From contig JANQNU010000040.1 of the NCBI GenBank assembly GCA_028279405.1, forward strand, positions 1-64,000: a stretch of 64,000 nucleotides of DNA. Direction: 5' to 3'. Every line of letters starts with the position of its first letter. The stretch's first letter is position 1. Positions 3,404-32,476 of the stretch are shown here, piece after piece. The stretch is from Phycisphaerae bacterium. GTDB taxonomy: Bacteria > Planctomycetota > Phycisphaerae > UBA1845 > Fen-1342. The translations under genes and the position numbers were made by a program. A model generated the notes under the pieces. That model was not told where the DNA came from and made no database searches. It saw only the letters and a program-made list of their open reading frames with translations.

Positions 3404-4977
3404 CCGCGTGCCGCACGACCCTCGGTCTCCTGACCGTGCTCGGTTGCGCCGTTCTCCTGACCGGCAGCAGCTGCGACGGGACGCAAGCCATCACGGTTGG
3501 ATCGAAGCTCTTCACTGAGTCGGTGATTCTCGGCGAGATCGCAACGCAGCTCGCCGTCAATGCCGGCGCTGATGCGACGCACCGGCGTGAAACCGGCGGA
3601 TCTACCGTGCTCTGGGAGGCGCTCAAGACCGGACAGATTGACGCGTATCCCGAATACACCGGAACCCTGCGACAAGAGATCCTGTCGCAACTCGGGCTGG
3701 AGTCCGACGAAGAACTCGCTGCAGCCCTGGCCCGGTACGGCGTAGCCATGAGTCGGCCGCTCGGATTCAGCAACACGTACGTGCTCGGAATGCGCAAGGC
3801 CCGCGCCGCGGAACTCGGCATCACGCGGATCAGCGACCTGACCCAGCATCCGGCGCTGCGATTCGGTTTTTCCAACGAGTTCCTGGAGCGTGGCGACGGG
3901 TGGCAGCAACTGCGGGCGCACTACGGGCTGCCCCAGGAGGACGTGCGCGGGCTGGATCACAACCTGGCGTACCAGGGGCTCGGGAGTGGGGCGCTGGACC
4001 TGATCGACGTCTATTCCACAGACCCCGAGATCCAATACTACGACCTTGCGATTCTCGAAGATGACCGGAGCTTCTTCCCGGACTATGACGCCATCTGGCT
4101 CTATCGCCAGGCGCTCGTCGAGACGCATCCGGAGGCAGTGGCGGCGTGGGGGCGCATCACGGGCCGGATCTCCGCCGAAACGATGCAGGCGCTCAACGGA
4201 CGCGCAAAGCCGCCCGGTGACCAGCCACGAGTTCCCGAGTCACAGGTGGCCGCCGATTTCCTGCGGGACGAGTTGCAGATCGAATCGCGCGTGACGACTG
4301 CGTCGACATCTCAGCAAATCCTGGCGCGAACGGGCGAACATCTCTATCTGGTATTCTGGTCGATGCTGCCCGCGATCCTCACGGCGATCCCACTGGGCGT
4401 CGTGGCAGCGAAGTATCGCACGACGGGTCAGGGAATTCTCGGCGTCGTCGGCATTCTTCAGACGATCCCGTCGTTGGCCCTGCTCGTTTTGCTGATCAAG
4501 CCGTTGTACGACGCCGGTGCGGCGCTGGAAGGCGTCCTGGGTTCGAGCTTCGGGCTCACGAGGCTAGGCGAGCCACAAGCGATTGTGGCGCTGTTCCTGT
4601 ACAGCTTGTTGCCCATCGTCCGTAACACGGCGGCCGGGATTAGCGGGATCGCGCACAGTGTGCGCGAGTCGGCGGAAGCGCTGGGCCTCACCCGGGCCGC
4701 GCGGCTGTTGCGCGTCGAACTGCCCCTGGCCTCGGGTGTGATGCTGGCCGGGATCAAGACGGCAGCCGTCATCAACGTCGGCTTCGCGACACTGGGCGCG
4801 CTGATCGGTGCGGGAGGATACGGACAGCCGATCCTCACGGGGATTCGCCTGGCCGACTATTCGCTCGTCCTTCAAGGAGCCGTGCCGGCTGCAGTGCTGG
4901 CGGTCGTGGTACAGGGGGTCTTCGAACTGCTCGAACGCGTCGTCGTCCCGCGTGGCCTGCGCCTGCGGCGCAGTTGA
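3400..4977 (+). CDS. Fused substrate-binding protein and permease of osmoprotectant ABC importer
   Basis: One 525-residue chain combines two parts usually encoded separately. Residues 1-25 are a hydrophobic export or anchor segment with a lipobox-like end (LTGSSC). Residues ~30-290 match the OpuAC/OsmX type binding protein (ITVGSKLFTESVILGEI, DAYPEYTGT, FSNTYVLGM). Residues ~300-525 are a six-helix OpuCB-like permease with the EAA loop ESAEALGLTRAARLLRVELP that docks on the ATPase. Binding-protein and permease fusions are known for this family, but in Lactococcus OpuA the binding domain is C-terminal. Here it is N-terminal, so it should sit outside the membrane tethered to the first helix. 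The likely ligand is a quaternary amine. Confidence 0.9.
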   Translation: MTACRTTLGLLTVLGCAVLLTGSSCDGTQAITVGSKLFTESVILGEIATQLAVNAGADATHRRETGGSTVLWEALKTGQIDAYPEYTGTLRQEILSQLGLESDEELAAALARYGVAMSRPLGFSNTYVLGMRKARAAELGITRISDLTQHPALRFGFSNEFLERGDGWQQLRAHYGLPQEDVRGLDHNLAYQGLGSGALDLIDVYSTDPEIQYYDLAILEDDRSFFPDYDAIWLYRQALVETHPEAVAAWGRITGRISAETMQALNGRAKPPGDQPRVPESQVAADFLRDELQIESRVTTASTSQQILARTGEHLYLVFWSMLPAILTAIPLGVVAAKYRTTGQGILGVVGILQTIPSLALLVLLIKPLYDAGAALEGVLGSSFGLTRLGEPQAIVALFLYSLLPIVRNTAAGISGIAHSVRESAEALGLTRAARLLRVELPLASGVMLAGIKTAAVINVGFATLGALIGAGGYGQPILTGIRLADYSLVLQGAVPAAVLAVVVQGVFELLERVVVPRGLRLRRS

Positions 4978-22596: not shown

Positions 22597-24197
<1,601 letters not shown>

Positions 24198-24198
<1 letters not shown>

Positions 24199-24214
24199 AT
24201 CCAACAGTATAGCA
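24198..24214 (-). promoter_or_regulatory. Candidate extended -10 promoter for rtcR, possibly leaderless
   Basis: On the minus strand TGCTATACT is an extended -10 element, with TATACT at 24211-24206. It lies only seven bases before the ATG at 24198. Transcription would begin at or next to the start codon, and no ribosome site is visible, so a leaderless message is likely. No convincing -35 was found, as expected for an extended -10. Confidence 0.4.
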
Positions 24215-24330: not shown

Positions 24331-24347
24331 CTGGAACATGGCCTGCA
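24331..24347 (+). promoter_or_regulatory. Sigma54 (-24/-12) promoter of the rsr-rtcB operon
   Basis: CTGGAACATGGCCTGCA matches the -24/-12 consensus with the invariant GG (24333-24334) and GC (24345-24346) exactly ten bases apart and good flanks (CTGG, TGCA). Transcription should start near 24358, leaving a ~36-base leader with GGAGGT before the rsr ATG. Its position downstream of a divergent sigma54 activator gene makes the call strong. It also rules out the in-frame ATG codons at 24295 and 24338, which lie before the transcript start. Confidence 0.8.
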
Positions 24348-24393: not shown

Positions 24394-25962
24394 ATGGCCA
24401 ACAAGACGCTGTTTCGATCGATCGCCGGACCGCGAATCGCGCGCACCGATACGGTCAACGCCGAGTGCGCTCCGGCTTACGCGTTGGCGCCCGAGCAGGC
24501 GCTGGCTCAGTACGCCGCGACTGGCTGCCTCAACGCGACGTTCTATGCTGGTGCCGAAATGCAGCTGAACGAGCTGCACCGACTCGCGGAGCAGGTCGAG
24601 CCGCGGTTTGTCGCCAAGACGGCCGTGTACTGTCGCGAGCGCGGGTTCATGAAGGATACACCGGCCGTGCTGTGTGCGATCCTATCGCTCCGCGCTCCGG
24701 CTTTGTTCGAGGCGGTGTTCGCGCGGGTAATCGACAACGCACGAATGCTGCGAAACTTCGTGCAGGTGATGCGTAGTGGGGCGGTCGGGCGCAAGTCGCT
24801 CGGATCGCTGCCCAAACGTCTGATTCGCGAGTGGCTGGCGGCGCGTTCCGATGAGGCCCTCTTCCGGGCGTCGGTAGGGCAGTCGCCGTCGCTGACGGAC
24901 ATTGTCCGCATGGTGCATCCGAAGCCGGCCTCGACGGCGCGTTCGGCGCTGTACGGATACCTGCTGGGACGCGACCACGATGCGACGGCGCTGCCGGGCC
25001 TGGTGCGCGAGTTTGAGGCGTTCAAGCGCTCGCCGGCCGGACGCGTGCCGGACGTTCCGTTTCAGATGCTCACGGCACTACCGCTCGAGAAGGGTGCGTG
25101 GAACCAGTTGGCCCAGCGGGCGCCGTGGCAGATGACGCGGATGAACCTCAACACCTTCGCGCGTCACGGCGTGTTCGGCAAGCGCGACCACGTACGAGCG
25201 ATAGCAGATCGGCTGCGCGATCCGGACGCAATCGCGAAGGCACGGGTGTTCCCGTATCAGTTGCTGATGGCGTACCGCGCGGCGACGGATGCGATCCCGG
25301 CCGAGATTCGCGCGGCGTTGCAGGACGCGCTCGAGATCGCGATCCAGAACGTGCCGCAGGTTGCCGGCAAGGTGTACGTGTTCCCGGACGTTTCCGGGTC
25401 GATGCATACCCCGGTGACCGGGCAGCGTCGCGGCGGCACGACGCAGGTTCGTTGTATCGACGTGGCGGCGCTGATCGCGGCCGCGGTCCTGCGACGTAAT
25501 CCGGATGCGGAGGTATTGCCGTTCGAGAGCGACGTCGTTTCGGTACGTTTGAATCCGCGCGACAGCGTGATGACCAACGCACAGAAGCTTGCAGCGCTGC
25601 CGTGGGGCGGTACCAACTGCAGTGCGCCGCTGGCCTGGCTGAACATGCGCGAGGCGCGCGGCGACCTGGTGATCTACGTCTCGGACAACGAGTCGTGGGT
25701 GGATAGCTCAGCGTACGGCCGTGGGGGGGGCGGCCGTACCGCAACAATGGAAGCGTGGGCGGACTTCAAACGCCGCAGCCCGCAGGCGCGGATGGTCTGT
25801 ATCGACATCCAGCCGAACCGGACCACGCAAGCACAGGAGCGTTCGGACATCCTGAACGTCGGCGGCTTCTCGGACAGCGTGTTCGAGATCGTCGCGGCTT
25901 ACGCCAAGGGTGAACTGGACGCAGCGCATTGGGTCGGCCGCATCGAGGCGGTCGAGCTCTGA
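24394..25962 (+). CDS. rsr: Ro60/Rsr, TROVE-domain RNA-binding ring protein
   Basis: Rsr is the bacterial orthologue of the Ro60 autoantigen. It forms a HEAT-repeat ring that binds Y RNAs on its outside and ends of damaged or misfolded RNA in its hole. The 522-residue product has the TROVE domain at residues ~25-325 (QALAQYAATGCLNATFYAG, FVAKTAVYCRERGFMKDTP, LPKRLIREWL) and a C-terminal von Willebrand A domain with the MIDAS motif DVSGS at ~332-336. The ATG at 24394 follows GGAGGT and lies after the sigma54 start site. The Y-RNA-like array begins nine bases after its stop and rtcB follows. Confidence 0.96.
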   Translation: MANKTLFRSIAGPRIARTDTVNAECAPAYALAPEQALAQYAATGCLNATFYAGAEMQLNELHRLAEQVEPRFVAKTAVYCRERGFMKDTPAVLCAILSLRAPALFEAVFARVIDNARMLRNFVQVMRSGAVGRKSLGSLPKRLIREWLAARSDEALFRASVGQSPSLTDIVRMVHPKPASTARSALYGYLLGRDHDATALPGLVREFEAFKRSPAGRVPDVPFQMLTALPLEKGAWNQLAQRAPWQMTRMNLNTFARHGVFGKRDHVRAIADRLRDPDAIAKARVFPYQLLMAYRAATDAIPAEIRAALQDALEIAIQNVPQVAGKVYVFPDVSGSMHTPVTGQRRGGTTQVRCIDVAALIAAAVLRRNPDAEVLPFESDVVSVRLNPRDSVMTNAQKLAALPWGGTNCSAPLAWLNMREARGDLVIYVSDNESWVDSSAYGRGGGGRTATMEAWADFKRRSPQARMVCIDIQPNRTTQAQERSDILNVGGFSDSVFEIVAAYAKGELDAAHWVGRIEAVEL

Positions 25963-25970
25963 TGTTCGGT

Positions 25971-26054
25971 CGGGCCGCGGACGGAATGCCGTCGGGACTA
26001 CATCGTTGAAGAAGCGTCAGTAGCGTCTCGACAAGTCTCGTCCGTCCGGGCCCG
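25971..26054 (+). ncRNA. Y-RNA-like unit 1 (minimal stem-loop, no tRNA mimic)
   Basis: An 84-base hairpin. The outer stem CGGGCC..GGACGGA (25971-25985) pairs with TCCGTCC.GGCCCG (26041-26054). Then comes the asymmetric internal loop shared by all four units: ATGCC (25986-25990) opposite AAGTCTCG (26033-26040). The inner stem GTCGGGAC (25991-25998) pairs with GTCTCGAC (26025-26032) and opens at the conserved ACTACAT into a short terminal loop with no tRNA-like arms. The loop is the presumed Rsr-binding site by analogy with Y RNAs. It begins nine bases after the rsr stop and is read in the same direction. Confidence 0.72.
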
Positions 26055-26076
26055 GGCGACGTTGGAGAGGAAGCAG

Positions 26077-26149
26077 GACCTCATGGTGAAATCGGAAATC
26101 ATGGGCGCCTACGAAGCGCCGGTTCCAGGTTCGAGTCCTGGTGAGGTCG
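26077..26149 (+). tRNA. tRNA-Arg (anticodon ACG), normal order
   Basis: A 73-base cloverleaf. The acceptor is GACCTCA/TGAGGTC (7 pairs), followed by a D arm GTGA/TCAT with GG in its loop. The anticodon stem GGCGC/GCGCC (5 pairs) carries loop CTACGAA, giving anticodon ACG. The variable region has four bases, and the T arm is CCAGG/CCTGG with loop TTCGAGT. CCA is not encoded. It sits inside the rsr-rtcB RNA array, 22 bases after Y unit 1, and its last base directly abuts the outer stem of Y unit 2. It could be a working tRNA or a stress-induced decoy or reporter for anticodon nucleases; the sequence alone cannot decide. Confidence 0.8.
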
Positions 26150-26260
26150 TCGGGGCGAATGCTCGACGGGACTACATGGTGAAGCACCTCAGACGGTGTG
26201 AAGGGTTCAAATCCCGCGCGCCCATGTGGCGCAGGTCCCGTCGGATGATTGTCGCCTCGG
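26150..26260 (+). ncRNA. Y-RNA-like unit 2 (partial tRNA mimic)
   Basis: A 111-base hairpin. The outer stem TCGGGGCGA (26150-26158) pairs with TCGCCTCGG (26252-26260). The shared internal loop is ATGCT (26159-26163) opposite GATGATTG (26244-26251). The inner stem CGACGGGAC (26164-26172) pairs perfectly with GTCCCGTCG (26235-26243). Inside are a CACC/GGTG hairpin, a T arm GGG-TTCAAAT-CCC (26203-26215) and a closed acceptor-like stem GCGCC/GGCGC (26218-26232). There is no D arm. The 5' end touches the 3' end of the tRNA-Arg, so tRNA 3' processing could create it. Confidence 0.75.
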
Positions 26261-26264
26261 ATGG

Positions 26265-26420
26265 AAGAATGTCGGGTTGCGAATGCTGGCAGGACTACAT
26301 TAACGCGCGGTTGCGGGTTCAAATCCCGCCGGGCCGGTGGCTGTTCACCATCACGTCCGTAGCTCAAATGGATAGAGCACGCGAAGCCTCTTGCCGACCC
26401 TCGTCGCGATTCGACATCTT
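26265..26420 (+). ncRNA. Y-RNA-like unit 3 (YrlA type, full permuted tRNA mimic)
   Basis: A 156-base RNA. The outer stem (26265-26282 with 26404-26420) includes GCGA/TCGC. The shared internal loop is ATGCT (26283-26287) opposite GACCCTCG (26396-26403). The inner stem GGCAGGA (26288-26294) pairs with TCTTGCC (26389-26395). The tip is a tRNA in permuted order. A CGCG/CGCG pair stands in the anticodon-stem position. T arm GCGGG-TTCAAAT-CCCGC (26313-26329) comes next, then acceptor CGGGC/GTCCG closed by a GGTG/CACC hairpin (26330-26359). TA and the D arm GCTC/GAGC (26362-26378) with GG in the loop complete it. This is the layout described for Salmonella YrlA. Confidence 0.82.
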
Positions 26421-26437
26421 GTTTGGCCCGGGGAAAA

Positions 26438-26583
26438 CCGGGCGGCGAATGCCGGTGGAACTACATGGGCTGTTAACCCGAAGGTTGCGGGTTCGAGTCC
26501 CGCCGGGTCCATTACGAATTACGGATGGGCCCGTAGCTCAAGTGGCAGAGCGCGACGTTTCGCCAACACTTGTCGCCGCCCGG
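26438..26583 (+). ncRNA. Y-RNA-like unit 4 (YrlA type, permuted tRNA mimic with Asn-like anticodon hairpin)
   Basis: A 146-base RNA. The outer stem CCGGGCGGCGA (26438-26448) pairs perfectly with 26573-26583. The internal loop is ATGCC (26449-26453) opposite AACACTTG (26565-26572). The inner stem GGTGGAA (26454-26460) pairs with TTTCGCC (26558-26564). The tip has a hairpin GGG-CTGTTAA-CCC (26467-26479) like a tRNA-Asn anticodon arm (GTT), then T arm GCGGG-TTCGAGT-CCCGC (26487-26503). Acceptor strands CGGGTCC (26504-26510) and GGGCCCG (26527-26533) pair across a 15-base linker, followed by D arm GCTC/GAGC (26536-26551). The CACTTG and CGAA strands recall the Ro-binding strands of vertebrate Y RNAs. 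Confidence 0.82.
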
Positions 26584-26763
26584 CCGGACTCAATGCCAGT
26601 CGGCGCCGCAGTGGCAACACTGCCGCGCCCTTGGCGTCCGGAGCCAACGCGCGTAGTACGAGACATGGACGGTTTTGGGAATCGGTGTCGGGTTTGCCAG
26701 GTGGCAGCCCTCCTTGGACATCGTAACGTGAAGCGCAGGCGCCGCCCGCAGCGAGAGGCAATC
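26584..26763 (+). other. Spacer before rtcB with two hairpins
   Basis: After the fourth Y-like unit come two further imperfect hairpins. The first spans 26584-26641: CCGGAC/GTCCGG outside, GCCAG/TTGGC, GGCGC/GCGCC, and GCAGTG/CACTGC closed by a GCAA tetraloop. The second spans 26683-26723 with CGGTGTC/GACATCG outside. Neither has the shared internal loop on both strands, although the first contains CAATGCC, so a decayed fifth unit is possible. No T tract follows, so they are more likely processing or stability elements than terminators. The rtcB ribosome site GAGAGG lies at the right end. Confidence 0.45.
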
Positions 26764-28269
26764 ATGACGCTCGAAGCGCAATCCAGCGAAGAGATCATCG
26801 TGACCGGCGAAGCGACCGGCATCCTTCCGGTCCGTAACGGAAAGCTGCCGCCCGTGACCGTCATCGGTACGGAGGCGATCCGCGCAACGTTCGACGCAAC
26901 GTGTCTCCAGCAGGCGCGGAACACGGCGTCTGCCCCCGGTGTATCGCGTGTCGTTCTGAATCCGGACGCGCACGTCGGATACGGTGCACCGGTTGGTAGC
27001 GTGCTGGCGTCGGATTCGCACGTGTATCCGGGTCCGGTCGGGCTCGACATCAAGTGTTCGATGAGTCTGTTGCAACTCGATGTCCCGGCCGACCAGATCG
27101 CGGACCGTCCGACCCGTCGGGCGTTGATCGATGCGATCTGCGCCCGGATTCCGACCGGCGCGGGGCGCGGCCAGCGCAGCGTGTCGAAGTCGCGACCGGT
27201 GTCGGCAGCGTTGGGGCGCCGCGCGGTTGCCGAGGGCGCTTCGAGTGCCGTGTGTCAGGCGCTCGGTATTCCGCCCGCTTGGGCAGAGCGCTGCGAGGAT
27301 GCAGGGCACGTCGGTCACGACGGGACCCGCGACGCCTTGTCAGCGCGGCTGGACTGGCTCATCGCGGGTGGCGCGTTCGAGACCTTCGAGGAGAAGATTC
27401 GTCAGTTGGGTTCCTACGGCGGCGGCAATCATTTCGGCGAGTGCGAGGTGGTTCGGCTCGTCGAGGCGGACCAGGCCGCGTTCTGCGCGAAGGTCTTCGG
27501 TCTGCGCGACCAGCACGTGGCGTTCTTGTCACATTGCGGATCGCGCGGTTTCGGGCATCATCTCGCGCAGGGCCAGTTCCGCACGCTCGAGCGCAAGTTC
27601 GAAACGTGGGGGATCCCATTGCCGGCGGGCGATCGACACCTGGTGTATGCCCCGTTGGGTACCGCCGAGGCCGACGCCTACCTCGACGACATGGCGCTCG
27701 GCGCCAACTTCGCGACTGTGAATCATCTGCTGATCAATGCGCTCGTACTCGAGGCGTTTCAGGAGGTGTTGCCGGGAACGACCGGAACGCTGGTGTATTT
27801 CATCAGCCACAACATCGCGCGGCAGGAGGTCATGGGAGCACGTCGTGTTTGGGTGCATCGTAAAGGAGCCACCCGGGCATTTCCGGCCGGCCACCCGGCG
27901 CTTGCAGAGACGCCGTTCCGCGTGACGGGTCACCCGATCCTTCTGCCTGGTAACCCGGCCGCAGGGTCGGCCGTGATGGTGGCGCGCCCGGGGGCCGAAC
28001 AGACCTGCTACAGCATCAACCACGGTGCTGGCCGACAACTGGGGCGCAAGCAGGCCATTCGGACGCTCGACCAGCAGGCCGTCGACGAACAGCTCGAGGT
28101 GCAGGACATCCTGACCAACTGTCGACGTTATCCGCGTGACGAGGCCCCGGCGGCGTACAAGGACTTCGACGAGGTGTTGCAGTCCGTGCAATCGGCGGAC
28201 CTCGCGACGACCGTTGCTCGACTCGATGCACGGTTCGTGATCAAGGACGCCGACAAGGCCGACGACTAG
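26764..28269 (+). CDS. rtcB: RtcB, 3'-phosphate/5'-hydroxyl RNA ligase
   Basis: RtcB joins RNA 2',3'-cyclic phosphate or 3'-phosphate ends to 5'-hydroxyl ends using GTP and Mn2+, the ends left by anticodon nucleases. The 501-residue protein keeps the metal and guanylylation residues: DAHVGYG (residues 68-74), GLDIKC with the metal cysteine at 98, SYGGGNHFGE, SHCGSRGFGHH, SHNIARQE, HRKGATRAFPAGHP, and the nucleophile histidine in SINHGAGR. The ATG at 26764 follows GAGAGG. The frame is open back to 26062, but that stretch is the structured RNA array. It is co-transcribed with rsr and the Y-like RNAs, as in known RNA-repair operons. Confidence 0.97.
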   Translation: MTLEAQSSEEIIVTGEATGILPVRNGKLPPVTVIGTEAIRATFDATCLQQARNTASAPGVSRVVLNPDAHVGYGAPVGSVLASDSHVYPGPVGLDIKCSMSLLQLDVPADQIADRPTRRALIDAICARIPTGAGRGQRSVSKSRPVSAALGRRAVAEGASSAVCQALGIPPAWAERCEDAGHVGHDGTRDALSARLDWLIAGGAFETFEEKIRQLGSYGGGNHFGECEVVRLVEADQAAFCAKVFGLRDQHVAFLSHCGSRGFGHHLAQGQFRTLERKFETWGIPLPAGDRHLVYAPLGTAEADAYLDDMALGANFATVNHLLINALVLEAFQEVLPGTTGTLVYFISHNIARQEVMGARRVWVHRKGATRAFPAGHPALAETPFRVTGHPILLPGNPAAGSAVMVARPGAEQTCYSINHGAGRQLGRKQAIRTLDQQAVDEQLEVQDILTNCRRYPRDEAPAAYKDFDEVLQSVQSADLATTVARLDARFVIKDADKADD

Positions 28270-28361: not shown

Positions 28362-29180
28362 ATGAACGAGTTGATTCAGCGTCAGTTCGAACGGATCGGG
28401 GCCCGGGTCGTCGTCCGGGCCCCGGATGGCCGCCGTCGCGCGTTCGGTGCGGCACCGGTCGGGCTCTCCGGACTCGCACTCGACGTAAGGCGGGACCGGT
28501 CCGGCGAATACTTCGACTTGGCCGTCGATCGGTTGGAAATCGCACTTCAGGTGATCGATCTGCGTCCGCGCGACCGACACCTGCTGTTGATGTCACGCAG
28601 TCTTAACGACGGTGCCAAGGACAAGTTTCTTTGCGGACACGACGAGCGTCACTGGTTCGTCGCCGCCGTGCCGCGCGGGCCGGCATCCAGTGTCGCGGGT
28701 GCGATGGAAGCGCTGAAGCCTGTCGCGGTGCAGACCGAACAGTCGCGCCGCCGGGTCCGTCGCAAGCATCGCAACAGCCGTCGCAACGCCGCGTTCGTGC
28801 GGCAGGGGGAGTGGTTCTTCGTGCCTGTCGGGGACGCGATCATTCCCGAGACCACGATGTTGCAGGACGAGCCGTTGCGGCGCGGCGGTGGCAAGGCGCA
28901 CTGGGCCGAGTACGTCGTGCGCCTCGGCGGCGAGGCTGTCTACGTGAACCGCCGTTGTCCCAACGGACTGCGGCCGACGGAGTACGGTGCGCTTCTCGGC
29001 CGCAATCCGAAGGCCCGCCAATGGCGCTGGCAGGTGCTGCGTCGCGACGCGCGGGTCTACGCCAAGGGGTGCATTCGACATCCGGATCACCAGACGATCG
29101 TGCTGCCGGGTTGGCACCGCGTCGTGCTCAATCGAGAATCCGAAGCGCCCGGGATGCGGCAGGTCGCGTTTCTTGACTGA
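28362..29180 (+). CDS. Unknown protein of the RNA-repair operon
   Basis: I do not recognise this 272-residue protein. The ATG follows AAAGGGGG at good spacing. The N-terminal ~75 residues are beta-strand-like (ARVVVRAPDGRRRAFG, LLLMSRSLNDGAKDKFLCGHDERHWFVAAVP). A very basic linker (QSRRRVRRKHRNSRRNAAF, residues ~126-144) follows. Then comes a second beta-rich domain (GEWFFVPVGDAIIP, KAHWAEYVVRLGGEAVYVNRR, VYAKGCIRHPDHQTIVLPGWHRV). The basic linker and the repeated aromatic/His pattern suggest RNA binding. No membrane or export signal is seen. It lies 92 bases after rtcB in the same direction, so a role in RNA repair is the working inference. Confidence 0.75.
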   Translation: MNELIQRQFERIGARVVVRAPDGRRRAFGAAPVGLSGLALDVRRDRSGEYFDLAVDRLEIALQVIDLRPRDRHLLLMSRSLNDGAKDKFLCGHDERHWFVAAVPRGPASSVAGAMEALKPVAVQTEQSRRRVRRKHRNSRRNAAFVRQGEWFFVPVGDAIIPETTMLQDEPLRRGGGKAHWAEYVVRLGGEAVYVNRRCPNGLRPTEYGALLGRNPKARQWRWQVLRRDARVYAKGCIRHPDHQTIVLPGWHRVVLNRESEAPGMRQVAFLD

Positions 29181-29290: not shown

Positions 29291-30151
29291 ATGAGCAATT
29301 ACGAGCGAATCGCAGCACTCATTCGACACCTCGAGGTCAACCGCCTCGAGCAACCCAGCTTGCGCGACCTGGCGGACGTGGCGGGATTGAGTCCGTATCA
29401 CCTGCAGCGGCTCTTTTCGCAATGGGTGGGCTTGTCGCCGAAGTCGTTTCTCCAGCAACTGACGCTACACGACGCCAAATCGCGCCTGTTGAGTGGGCAG
29501 AGCGTCTTGCAGGCGGCGCTCGACGCGGGGCTGTCCGGGCCAGGCCGACTGCACGACCTGTGTATCACGCTCGAGGCGGCCTCCCCGGGCGAGATCAAGT
29601 CCGGCGGTGACGGATGGTCGATCCGGGCCGGATTCGCCGACTCCGTGTTGGGACACTGTCTGGTCGCCGAAGGGCCGCGCGGAATCTGTCATTTGTCGTT
29701 CCTACCGGCCGCGGACACGTTGGTGGGCGAGTCGCTGATACGAGACGATTGGCCACGAGCACGGATTCGCTGGGATGACGAGATTGCGACGCGGGTAGTG
29801 GCCCAGGCGCTCGGCGGCGCCTCCACGCAGCCGGGCGGCGAGCGGGTGCGGCTGCGATGCTTTGTTCGCGGAACGGACTTTCAGGTGCGTGTCTGGCGCG
29901 CCTTGTTGCAGATTCCGTACGGCAGGCTCGCGAGCTATGGGCAGGTGGCTGCCGCGATCGGTGCTCCACGCGCCGGGCGCGCGGTCGGTTCGGCCGTGGG
30001 CCGGAATGCAATCGGCGTGCTCATTCCGTGTCATCGGGTGATTCGCGAGACGGGTGTAATCACTCAATACCGATGGGGAGCCCATCGAAAACGCGCATTG
30101 ATCGCGTTGGAATCGTCCGAGGCGACGCCGCGCTGGTCCTCGTCGGCCTAG
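29291..30151 (+). CDS. AraC-type HTH fused to O6-methylguanine methyltransferase (Ada-like, no zinc domain)
   Basis: A 286-residue fusion. Residues ~5-90 are an AraC-family double helix-turn-helix (LRDLADVAGLSPYHLQRLFSQWVGLSPKSFLQ). Residues ~105-275 are a suicide alkyltransferase with the active-site motif IPCHRVI and the preceding FQVRVWRALLQIPYGRLASYGQV block. It lacks the N-terminal Cys4 zinc domain through which E. coli Ada senses methyl phosphotriesters, so it cannot be switched in that way. It would remove O6-alkylguanine from DNA and perhaps control genes. It stands between rtcB and rtcA, 110 bases after the unknown gene, apparently inside the sigma54 operon. Confidence 0.92.
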   Translation: MSNYERIAALIRHLEVNRLEQPSLRDLADVAGLSPYHLQRLFSQWVGLSPKSFLQQLTLHDAKSRLLSGQSVLQAALDAGLSGPGRLHDLCITLEAASPGEIKSGGDGWSIRAGFADSVLGHCLVAEGPRGICHLSFLPAADTLVGESLIRDDWPRARIRWDDEIATRVVAQALGGASTQPGGERVRLRCFVRGTDFQVRVWRALLQIPYGRLASYGQVAAAIGAPRAGRAVGSAVGRNAIGVLIPCHRVIRETGVITQYRWGAHRKRALIALESSEATPRWSSSA

Positions 30152-30187
30152 CGGTGAGCTGGAGTTGATAATGAAGGTAGGGCTACG

Positions 30188-30865
30188 ATGAAGATTGTCA
30201 CACTCGTCTATCCGGGAGTAACGCCGCTCGATCTGGTGGGGCCATTGCAGGTCTGGAGCAGCTGGCCCGGCGCGCATGTCGAAATCGCAGCGAGGACGCT
30301 CGACCCGTTGGCGACGGACACGGTTATGCAGATCGTCCCTACTCACACTTACACGACCGCGGCCGCCGATCCCGACATTCTCTTTGTACCGGGCGGAACT
30401 GACGGTACCTTGGCAGCGATCGCCGATGACGGATTGCTGGCCTTCGTACGCGATCGTGGCGGGCGCGCCGGCTGGGTTACAAGTGTCTGTACGGGCGCGC
30501 TCGTGCTGGGAGCGGCTGGGTTGCTGAGAGGCTATGAAAGTACGACGCACTGGCTTGTTCTGGACGAACTCAAACGATTCGGCGCTCGACCGGTCAAGGC
30601 GCGCTGGGTGATCGATCGGAACCGGGCAGCGGGCGGAGGCGTCAGTGCGGGCATCGACTTCGGCCTCGCGCTGATGGCGCGCATCGTCGGTGAGGACCAC
30701 GCGCGCATGACTCAGCTGGCGATCGAGTATGCGCCGGACCCGCCATTCCGCTCGGGAACGCCGGACGAGGCCCGGCCGGAGACCCGCGAGGCGGTGCGCA
30801 GCGCGTTTCGTGGTTTTGTTAGCGCGCTCGACCAGATGACCGCGGTGCTGGCCGACGATAAGTAA
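30188..30865 (+). CDS. DJ-1/PfpI family protein, isonitrile-hydratase-like
   Basis: A 225-residue class-I glutamine-amidotransferase-like protein. It begins MKIVTLVYPGVTPLDLVGPLQVW, as in isonitrile hydratase and GATase1 domains of AraC regulators. The nucleophile-elbow cysteine is in TSVCTGALVLGAAGLL, and the family glutamate and DFVGP-like segment are present as LDLVGPLQ. No AraC HTH follows. Family members act as isonitrile hydratases, glyoxalases or deglycases, so the substrate is open. It starts 36 bases after the Ada-like gene in the RNA-repair operon, which suggests a stress or damage role. Confidence 0.88.
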   Translation: MKIVTLVYPGVTPLDLVGPLQVWSSWPGAHVEIAARTLDPLATDTVMQIVPTHTYTTAAADPDILFVPGGTDGTLAAIADDGLLAFVRDRGGRAGWVTSVCTGALVLGAAGLLRGYESTTHWLVLDELKRFGARPVKARWVIDRNRAAGGGVSAGIDFGLALMARIVGEDHARMTQLAIEYAPDPPFRSGTPDEARPETREAVRSAFRGFVSALDQMTAVLADDK

Positions 30866-30959
30866 TCCGAGCGTTGCGCGCCGGCCCGTACACGTGGTTC
30901 AAATTGCGATGGCCAATTCGGCTTCGCTCGATACGCTTGGGGATCGACCGAGGGGACCA

Positions 30960-31460
30960 GTGCAGGAGCGCCGCGAAAACGAACAGTACTTCTTCGACAG
31001 GCCGACGATCCTCGTGCTGGCGGACATGCTGGCGACGTTCGAGCGGCCCTGTGTGGTTTGTGCTCCGCTGGTGGGGATCGAGCTGGAACAGCGCGGCAAG
31101 GACGTGACGATCCTGGATATTGACGAGCGGTTTCGCACCTGTCGGGGCTATGTTCACTGGGACTTGAATCGGCCGGTGTCGCTCGACCGGCAATTCGGGG
31201 TGATCTTCTGCGACCCGCCGTTCTTCAATGTGTCGCTCCGGCAGCTCTTCTTGGCGCTGCGCTTGGTGGCCGGTTACAACTTATCGCAACCGATGGCGGT
31301 GAGTTTTCTCGAGCGGCGTGCGAAGCGGATAATGGCGACATTTGCGCCGTTCGCATTACAGCCGACCGCTATTCGGCTGGGCTACCGTGCGGTGACGGCG
31401 TGTGGCCGGAATGAAATTCGATTGTTCAGCAATTTCGTGGTGAGTGGGGGGGAACAATGA
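30960..31460 (+). CDS. DPPF-motif methyltransferase (N6-adenine/EEF1A-lysine methyltransferase-like)
   Basis: A small Rossmann methyltransferase with the catalytic motif CDPPFF, the mark of the PF10237-type family that includes N6-adenine and eEF1A lysine methyltransferases. Other family features are the opening NEQYFFDRPTILVLADML, the Ado-Met loop CVVCAPLVGIELEQRG, and DITLD-like VTILDIDERF. The GTG at 30960 is preferred because GAGGGG precedes it; GTG 30894 or ATG 30909 would add 17-22 residues lacking family similarity. The stop overlaps the rtcA start (ATGA), so the two are translationally coupled. No restriction enzyme is nearby, which argues against a restriction-modification role. The target (RNA, DNA or protein) is unknown. 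Confidence 0.8.
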   Translation: MQERRENEQYFFDRPTILVLADMLATFERPCVVCAPLVGIELEQRGKDVTILDIDERFRTCRGYVHWDLNRPVSLDRQFGVIFCDPPFFNVSLRQLFLALRLVAGYNLSQPMAVSFLERRAKRIMATFAPFALQPTAIRLGYRAVTACGRNEIRLFSNFVVSGGEQ

Positions 31461-32476
31461 TCGTAATTGACGGATCACAGGGCGAGGGCGGCGGACAGGT
31501 CCTGCGGTCGTCGTTGGCACTATCGCTCGTGACGGGCCAGCCGTTCACGATCCATGGAATCCGCGCCGGCCGCGACAAGCCCGGGCTGCTGCGCCAGCAT
31601 CTGACCGCGGTTCAGGCGGCCGCGGAGGTGGGCGGGGCGCGTGTCTCGGGCGCGGCGCTGCGGAGCTGCGAGCTCACATTCGAGCCGGGCAGGCCGGCGG
31701 GAGGGGCGTACCACTTCTCGGTGGGGACCGCTGGCAGCGCCACGCTGGTCCTGCAAACGGTGCTTCCGGCCCTGCTTTGCGCGGACGCACCGACCACGCT
31801 ACGGCTGGAAGGCGGTACGCACAATCCGTGGGCGCCGCCGTTCGACTTTCTGGTGCAGGCGTTCCTGCCGCTGATCAATCGGATGGGGCCCACCGTCAAC
31901 GCGACACTTGTCAGGCCGGGCTTCTATCCGGCTGGAGGCGGCCGGTTCGACGTCGCCATTACGCCCGCCCCGGCATTGCAACCAATCGAGCTGCTCGATC
32001 GTGGGGCGGTCGAAAGAGTGAGCGCCGTAGCGCGCGTCGCGCACTTGCCGCGAATCATCGCCGAACGGGAGCTGCAGGTCGTTCGGCGAAAGCTCGGCCT
32101 GTCCCAGGATGCGCTGACGGTCGAGGAGGTGGACGGATCCGCGGGTCCGGGGAACATCCTGACGATCGCCGTCCAGTCCGAGCAACTGACCGAGGTCTTT
32201 ACCGGGTTCGGCGAGCGACGGACGCCGGCCGAAGCCGTCGCGGAAAACGCCGTGCAGCAGGTTCGAAAGTACCTCGCGAAACCCGTCGCCGCAGGTGAGT
32301 TCCTGACCGACCAGTTGTTGATCCCGTTGGCACTGGCAGGAGGAGGCGCGTTCGGTACCCTGGGGCTCTCGCGACACGCCCAAACGAACATCGCGGTCAT
32401 CCGGTCGTTTCTCGACGTGGTTTTCGAAACTGAGCGCGCGCCGACCGGCTACATCGTTCGAACACGATCCGGCTAG
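31457..32476 (+). CDS. rtcA: RNA 3'-terminal phosphate cyclase RtcA
   Basis: RtcA uses ATP to convert an RNA 3'-phosphate to the 2',3'-cyclic phosphate that RtcB can ligate. At 339 residues it has the family length. Visible motifs are DGSQGEGGGQVLRSSLALS at the N-terminus, RAGRDKPGLLRQHLTAV, GFYPAGGG, and the adenylylated histidine in LSRHAQTN (residue 307). It is the last gene of the operon that begins with rsr, coupled by ATGA to the methyltransferase gene. In E. coli and Salmonella rtcA lies next to rtcB; here four extra genes stand between them. Confidence 0.96.
   Translation: MIVIDGSQGEGGGQVLRSSLALSLVTGQPFTIHGIRAGRDKPGLLRQHLTAVQAAAEVGGARVSGAALRSCELTFEPGRPAGGAYHFSVGTAGSATLVLQTVLPALLCADAPTTLRLEGGTHNPWAPPFDFLVQAFLPLINRMGPTVNATLVRPGFYPAGGGRFDVAITPAPALQPIELLDRGAVERVSAVARVAHLPRIIAERELQVVRRKLGLSQDALTVEEVDGSAGPGNILTIAVQSEQLTEVFTGFGERRTPAEAVAENAVQQVRKYLAKPVAAGEFLTDQLLIPLALAGGGAFGTLGLSRHAQTNIAVIRSFLDVVFETERAPTGYIVRTRSG

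Follow-up and report, generated by a model that had tools for sequence, protein, structure and literature searches.

A predicted RtcR/sigma54-controlled RNA-repair operon with a tRNA-Arg gene among four Y RNAs between rsr and rtcB in a Phycisphaerae bacterium

In Deinococcus, a Y RNA tethers Rsr, the bacterial orthologue of Ro60, to PNPase. A survey by Chen et al. reportedly found probable Y RNAs close to Ro60 in more than 250 species, with at least one that was tRNA-like in each, and therefore already implied several Y RNAs in some species. In Salmonella, the ligand of the activator RtcR is the 5' tRNA half with a 2',3'-cyclic phosphate and its target is the rsr-yrlBA-rtcBA operon (PMC7790460), and in Anabaena one repressor, relieved by stress, controls both rtcB and a tRNA operon that is otherwise silent (PMC10272220). 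In jumbo phages, tRNAs, RNA ligases and TROVE proteins have been treated together as RNA repair (PMC7824862); Ro genes lying in tRNA clusters are already known from phages.

The window described here (the whole stretch of DNA that was analysed, 64,000 nucleotides from the genome of a Phycisphaerae bacterium) contains a divergent rtcR followed by rsr, Y RNA 1 (Y1), a tRNA-Arg, Y2, Y3, Y4, rtcB and, further downstream, rtcA. The rtcR gene (22597–24204, minus strand) encodes a sigma54 activator with an RtcR (CARF-type) sensor domain (Pfam RtcR, 1.3e-82; Sigma54_activat, 3.6e-46). The plus strand carries a sigma54 −24/−12 type site, TGGAACATGGCCTGCA, at 24332–24347, which agrees with the consensus at 9 of 11 positions, followed by rsr at 24394–25962 (Pfam vWA_Ro60, 1.1e-17; TROVE, 8.1e-8), the RNA ligase gene rtcB at 26764–28269 (Pfam RtcB, 2.6e-105) and the RNA 3'-phosphate cyclase gene rtcA at 31457–32476 (Pfam RTC, 4.8e-75). 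The Rsr protein was found to be 59–71% identical to its orthologues. Divergent RtcR, RtcB together with RtcA, and a sigma54 promoter, the features that define an RtcR-controlled operon, are thus all present, and among related loci sigma54-type sites were found in 43 of 49 RtcR–rsr gaps, compared with 1.9% of shuffled gaps. The preliminary description of this DNA had proposed that the interval is part of a single sigma54 transcript, and the divergent rtcR and the sigma54-type site upstream of rsr support the idea of one inducible transcript. By homology with the Salmonella system, the array should be inducible by damaged tRNA.

Several further genes lie between rtcB and rtcA. The first (28362–29180) encodes a 272-amino acid protein with no match in Pfam or NCBIfam; a homologue that is 49% identical is encoded inside the tRNA array of the acidobacterial locus L096 (3092–3877), and the protein may be a further component of Rsr/tRNA-array loci. 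The remainder (29291–31460) comprises an Ada-like AraC/methylguanine methyltransferase, a DJ-1/PfpI protein and a match to Pfam N6-adenineMlase.

The interval bounded by rsr and rtcB (25963–26763, 801 bases) had been described as containing four hairpins and one cloverleaf, and the combined use of ARAGORN, Rfam and a covariance model built for this work (R1, see below) located all five within a few bases of the positions first given. From their sequence and predicted folding, we are confident that the hairpins are Y RNAs of the YrlA/YrlB kind with differing inserts, as had been proposed, and they are predicted to bind Rsr. All are on the plus strand directly behind rsr, and so are encoded beside a Ro60 orthologue as expected of bacterial Y RNAs. 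Y1 (25973–26055; R1, 45 bits; fold z −4.6) is a minimal unit with no tRNA-like part, in the place occupied by YrlB. Y2 (26150–26266), identified by R1 (31 bits, match 26148–26266), by a 21-bit match to the Rfam YrlA model (26152–26261) and by its fold, has only a T-arm-like hairpin. Y3 (26271–26418; R1, 129 bits) and Y4 (26437–26587; R1, 131 bits) are of the full YrlA type, with both the T-arm and the D-arm of the tRNA-like domain. With the Rfam YrlA model (RF02553, cut-off 69 bits), Y4 scored above the cut-off (26442–26582, 71.4 bits) and Y3 slightly below it (26276–26413, 66.6 bits), whereas Y1 (19 bits) and Y2 were far below. Comparison with covariance models therefore gave a divided answer, in that all four units match R1 but Rfam on its own accepts only the last. 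Against the YrlB model (RF02565), Y1 scored 15.7 bits where the curated cut-off is 97 bits, and we call it a minimal Y unit rather than YrlB, with which only its place and small size agree.

The outer and inner stems attributed to every hairpin in the preliminary description were present in all four units, but its account of the anatomy needed correction, as Y2 lacks the D-arm part and the full YrlA structure is confined to Y3 and Y4. The units of the window form a graded series, from no tRNA-like part through a T-arm-like hairpin alone to two complete domains, and the suggestion that Rsr is supplied with a set of tethers carrying different effectors would fit this anatomy. All pieces of the interval folded better than shuffled sequences (z −2.5 to −4.6). 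A strong hairpin absent from the original list (26583–26650, z −2.8) directly follows Y4 and has an AATGCC motif; as a candidate for a fifth Y RNA it was rejected, as it gave no match to R1.

R1 was built from seven full units of three genomes (the window, L014 and L005), which were aligned blind to structure before the structure was predicted with RNAalifold. The predicted structure had outer and inner stems, together with a T-arm of 5 bp, a D-arm of 4 bp and a stem resembling an acceptor stem. Compensatory change at homologous loci, which had been named as a check on the hairpins, was seen at 17 of the 34 pairs in these seven sequences, from whose alignment the structure was itself derived, and 33 of 34 pairs had changed on both sides in the best 150 R1 matches, aligned by fitting to the model. 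In the same 150 sequences, with an alignment that leans to the model, paired cells amounted to 94.6%, compared with 39–57% when the partners were slid. The units thus show the conserved stem pair and internal loop that characterise YrlA, with covariation that we regard as decisive. Searching with R1 gave 298 matches from 83 sources, all on the strand of rsr, some of the weaker ones being tRNAs; Y1 and Y2 of the window, both outside the training set, were recovered at the scores given above, and equally so with the filters off.

One feature of the interval could suggest instead that it encodes additional N-terminal sequence of RtcB: no stop interrupts the rtcB frame from 26062 to 28269, through the tRNA and three Y RNAs, which leaves 234 open codons before the rtcB start, and only 0.04% of shuffled sequences were as open. 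However, the open frames of RtcB orthologues reach at most about 46 codons beyond the match, so that a long extension is not shared, and the bases of the interval vary as helix pairs and fit the tRNA and Y RNA models. A conserved extension was consequently rejected and we see practically no chance that the interval is coding, in agreement with the preliminary description.

According to the same description, one or two Y RNAs were the known complement of such loci and a set of four had, to its author's knowledge, not been reported, a view that did not survive comparison with related loci. A scan for Rsr in genomes from 84,980 species identified 506 relatives, from which the best 80 were fetched; in the 73 of these loci that extended at least 1 kb beyond rsr, the number of Y core motifs ranged from none (one locus) through one (5 loci), two (19), three (18), four (19) and five (8) to six (3). 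Since 30 of the 73 have at least four, four Y RNAs per locus is ordinary among relatives of the window. Locus L014 belongs to the same family; its units are a short one and three of YrlA type, and it has no tRNA. Placement of the shortest unit first was seen in 22 of 33 loci with at least two R1 matches (compiled by hand from those matches; p ~5e-5 for random order, which is indicative only as the loci are related). The largest set seen, nine core motifs within 3 kb after rsr, was at L108. Two loci (L040, 7830–7960; L042, 4470–4600) have a Y RNA in which the insert is a nearly whole tRNA body, with D-arm, anticodon arm and T-arm in normal order, and because of this ARAGORN calls a tRNA inside each. 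These calls, similar ones just after rsr in L096 and L326, and a tRNA-SeC call in L044 were discarded, as they fell within or resembled Y RNAs.

The operon tRNA, rather than the number of Y RNAs, is the most informative and unusual part of the locus. It is a tRNA-Arg(ACG) (26077–26149, plus strand; called by ARAGORN, Rfam 53.8 bits with a cut-off of 29) with pairing in each of its four stems and an intact anticodon loop, CTACGAA, that has A at position 37, as expected of a tRNA gene. It is a divergent second copy: the other tRNA-Arg(ACG) of the genome (L158) is only about 58% identical to it and has the loop CTACGGA, so the window holds one extra, divergent tRNA beside a complete housekeeping set. 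The same isoacceptor was found between rsr and rtcB in L081, L103 and L105, with tRNA-Pro(TGG) as well in L103 and L105, and after rsr, with a tRNA-Asp, in L286, where the contig ends before any rtcB. All four copies have the loop CTACGAA, though L103 and L105 are alike and the recurrences are therefore not independent events. Two tRNA-Leu genes occupy the gap in L005.

Such a tRNA could be a passenger, either the remnant of a former array or a decaying, acquired phage-like tRNA, with a role, at most, in cutting of the transcript. Its divergence and low score (it ranks third from last among the 51 tRNAs that Rfam finds in the genome) point this way, as do the finding of a mere tRNA remnant, without an ARAGORN call, at the same place in the closest relative (L037/L034, of which L037 is a Phycisphaerales MAG) and the absence of a tRNA from L014 and from most RtcR-type loci. 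Four paired stems and an intact anticodon loop speak against decay, as does the finding of this isoacceptor, each time with the loop CTACGAA, behind rsr at four further loci, and we regard a passenger as unlikely, while still worth weighing.

At other Rsr loci tRNA genes are far more prominent. Arrays of 8 to 30 tRNA genes, on the same strand as rsr and upstream of it, were present at 15 acidobacterial loci, in several of which Y RNAs are interspersed among the tRNAs. For the best 80 loci, upstream arrays were found at 15 of 22 without a nearby RtcR and at none of 58 with RtcR (Fisher p 3e-11). An even sample of two phyla, covering 392 genomes of Planctomycetota (39 with Rsr) and 396 of Acidobacteriota (15 with Rsr), gave the same picture: at least one upstream tRNA was present in 16/25 loci without RtcR and 0/13 with RtcR in the Planctomycetota, and in 8/8 and 0/7, respectively, in the Acidobacteriota, counts that include single genes and several loci of one genus. 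Upstream counts in L283, L306 and L317 were 31, 19 and 20, and same-strand arrays of 15–31 tRNAs lie upstream of rsr, without RtcR, in L283, L306, L315, L317, L061, L074 and L096. No RtcR orthologue was found in 16 acidobacterial genomes searched whole; the best candidates for a hidden one were ~31–43% identical, nearly all over the sigma54 ATPase part only, and were rejected. Some array loci (L044, L063) have another RtcB subfamily, and within the array of L096 there is an HNH-nuclease-like ORF (3961–4545) with an IscB-like match below the cut-off.

To judge from their sequences, these arrays resemble spare sets. Only the L044 genome was examined in full; there, 11 array tRNAs accompany 45 distinct housekeeping tRNAs and are only 49–73% identical to those with the same anticodon; three arrays (L061, L074 and L096) cover all 20 isotypes, and the L283 genome has 77 tRNAs in total. 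At position 37 of tRNAs whose anticodon ends in G, A outnumbered G by 54:17 in the 15 acidobacterial arrays, by 8:1 in L283 and by 24:4 in L302–L316. In housekeeping tRNAs the ratio was 1:13 for the genome of the window and 3:9 for that of L044. The Fisher p for the first of these comparisons was 8e-8, a value obtained with related genes pooled and with only two housekeeping sets.

We tentatively suggest that Rsr/Y-RNA loci may follow two designs. In one, exemplified by the window, RtcR would switch a set of Y RNAs accompanied by no more than one or two tRNAs. The other has no RtcR but a spare tRNA set of up to 20 isotypes that would share one transcript with Y RNAs and rsr; its tRNAs are diverged from the housekeeping set and, for codons starting with C, prefer A37. 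Y RNAs and tRNAs would be released from a shared precursor. If this possibility holds, Rsr would act in the production or the quality control of emergency tRNAs, and A37 in place of G37 could free the spare tRNAs from m1G37 methylation or from loop-reading nucleases. A literature search, itself incomplete, found no paper describing rsr-linked tRNA arrays, so earlier notice is possible.

The arrays also bear on two other roles for the operon tRNA. As a sensor bait, its cleaved 5' half would bind RtcR and hold the operon on, in line with the binding of 5' tRNA halves by Salmonella RtcR (PMC7790460) and with the fact that the gap tRNA of RtcR-type loci is usually Arg(ACG). Before induction, however, cellular tRNAs would far outnumber the operon tRNA, most RtcR-type loci lack one, and it is the loci without RtcR that have many more tRNAs, which makes a bait very improbable. 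The tRNA and the tRNA-like Y domains could otherwise be decoys that bind an anticodon nuclease or other tRNA enzymes and so shield cellular tRNAs; Hughes et al. proposed YrlA as a possible nuclease inhibitor (PMC7790460), and Y3 and Y4 mimic the T-arm and D-arm. This we think improbable, as the mimic is mostly or wholly missing from Y1 and Y2 and has no anticodon arm, and the complete spare tRNA sets of other loci suit replacement better.

The arrangement of tRNAs and Y RNAs suggests how the units might be released. In 15 of 18 adjacent tRNA–Y pairs (two false tRNA calls inside Y RNAs being excluded), the Y core motif lay 7–13 bases past the tRNA end, a stretch about as long as the outer stem's 5' arm; the distance in the window is 7 bases, and Y2 starts at the very next base after the tRNA. 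At L103, the Y matches stop where tRNA-Pro and tRNA-Arg start. Judged from this spacing, cutting at tRNA ends would give Y RNA ends directly.

While the identity of the parts is firm, their functions have to be inferred. The reading that we consider probable is that the window holds an RtcR/sigma54 RNA-repair operon with a tRNA/Y-RNA polycistron, cut at the tRNA ends to yield partners for Rsr together with a replacement tRNA. This reading is favoured because RtcR, the sigma54 site, rsr, rtcB and rtcA occur in order, because the four units fit one model on the strand of rsr with covariation at nearly all pairs, because Y cores follow tRNA ends at so regular a distance, and because in Salmonella RtcR senses tRNA halves and drives the equivalent operon (PMC7790460). 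It is also favoured because four further loci have a tRNA-Arg(ACG) behind rsr, because RtcR-less Rsr loci have upstream arrays, that of L044 consisting of divergent extra copies, and because the tRNA operon and rtcB of Anabaena share a stress-relieved repressor (PMC10272220). Against this reading we count the rank of the operon tRNA near the bottom of its genome, its lack of an encoded CCA, the mere remnant at its place in the closest relative and the lack of a tRNA in the gap of most RtcR-type loci. We also count against it that, to our knowledge, Y RNA function is established in Deinococcus only. In the proposed mechanism, damaged tRNAs would switch on the promoter before rsr, and RNase P and the tRNA 3'-end nucleases would cut the long transcript at the tRNA ends, thereby also fixing where Y2 begins. 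Binding of the Y RNAs to Rsr would use the elements common to all units, the outer and inner stems with the internal loop between them, and the units would present different inserts that range from none to a tRNA-like domain. The stress-made second tRNA-Arg(ACG) would replace isoacceptors lost to cleavage, and RtcA and RtcB would mend the remaining damaged tRNAs. Physical linkage of Rsr, Y RNAs, an RNA ligase and spare tRNA sets suggests a testable role in the supply and mending of tRNAs after an attack on translation, and the locus predicts that Y RNA ends are made by tRNA processing. With the A37 mark, emergency tRNAs may need fewer modifications to function or may withstand nuclease attack.

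Among described systems, the rsr-yrlBA-rtcBA operon of Salmonella Typhimurium (Hughes et al. 2020, PMC7790460) shares with the window a divergent rtcR, sigma54 control, rsr, YrlB- and YrlA-type Y RNAs, rtcB and rtcA; it has two Y RNAs and is named without a tRNA, whereas the window has four and a tRNA and, unlike Salmonella, several genes between rtcB and rtcA. The Rfam families RF02553 and RF02565 share with the Y RNAs of the window the outer and inner stems, the GAAUGC/ACUAC motif of the internal loop, and the T-arm and D-arm of the tRNA-like domain, but Y1 and Y2 lie far below their cut-offs. The trn operon of Anabaena PCC 7120 (PMC10272220) likewise places spare tRNAs beside a housekeeping set, with a link to RtcB by shared control; there, however, 26 plasmid tRNAs are under the repressor TrcR and rtcB is elsewhere, whereas the window has one tRNA inside an RtcR repair operon. 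Myxococcus phage Mx1 and Streptomyces phage Jada also have a Ro/TROVE gene amid tRNA genes, but these are phage genomes, with no RtcR gene annotated in the regions shown. The Mx1 Rsr (L329, 6001–7650) is 48% identical to that of the window and has several tRNA genes within 6 kb. What seems new here is the operon tRNA and the proposed two designs of Rsr loci, the Y-RNA set itself being normal for relatives of the window.
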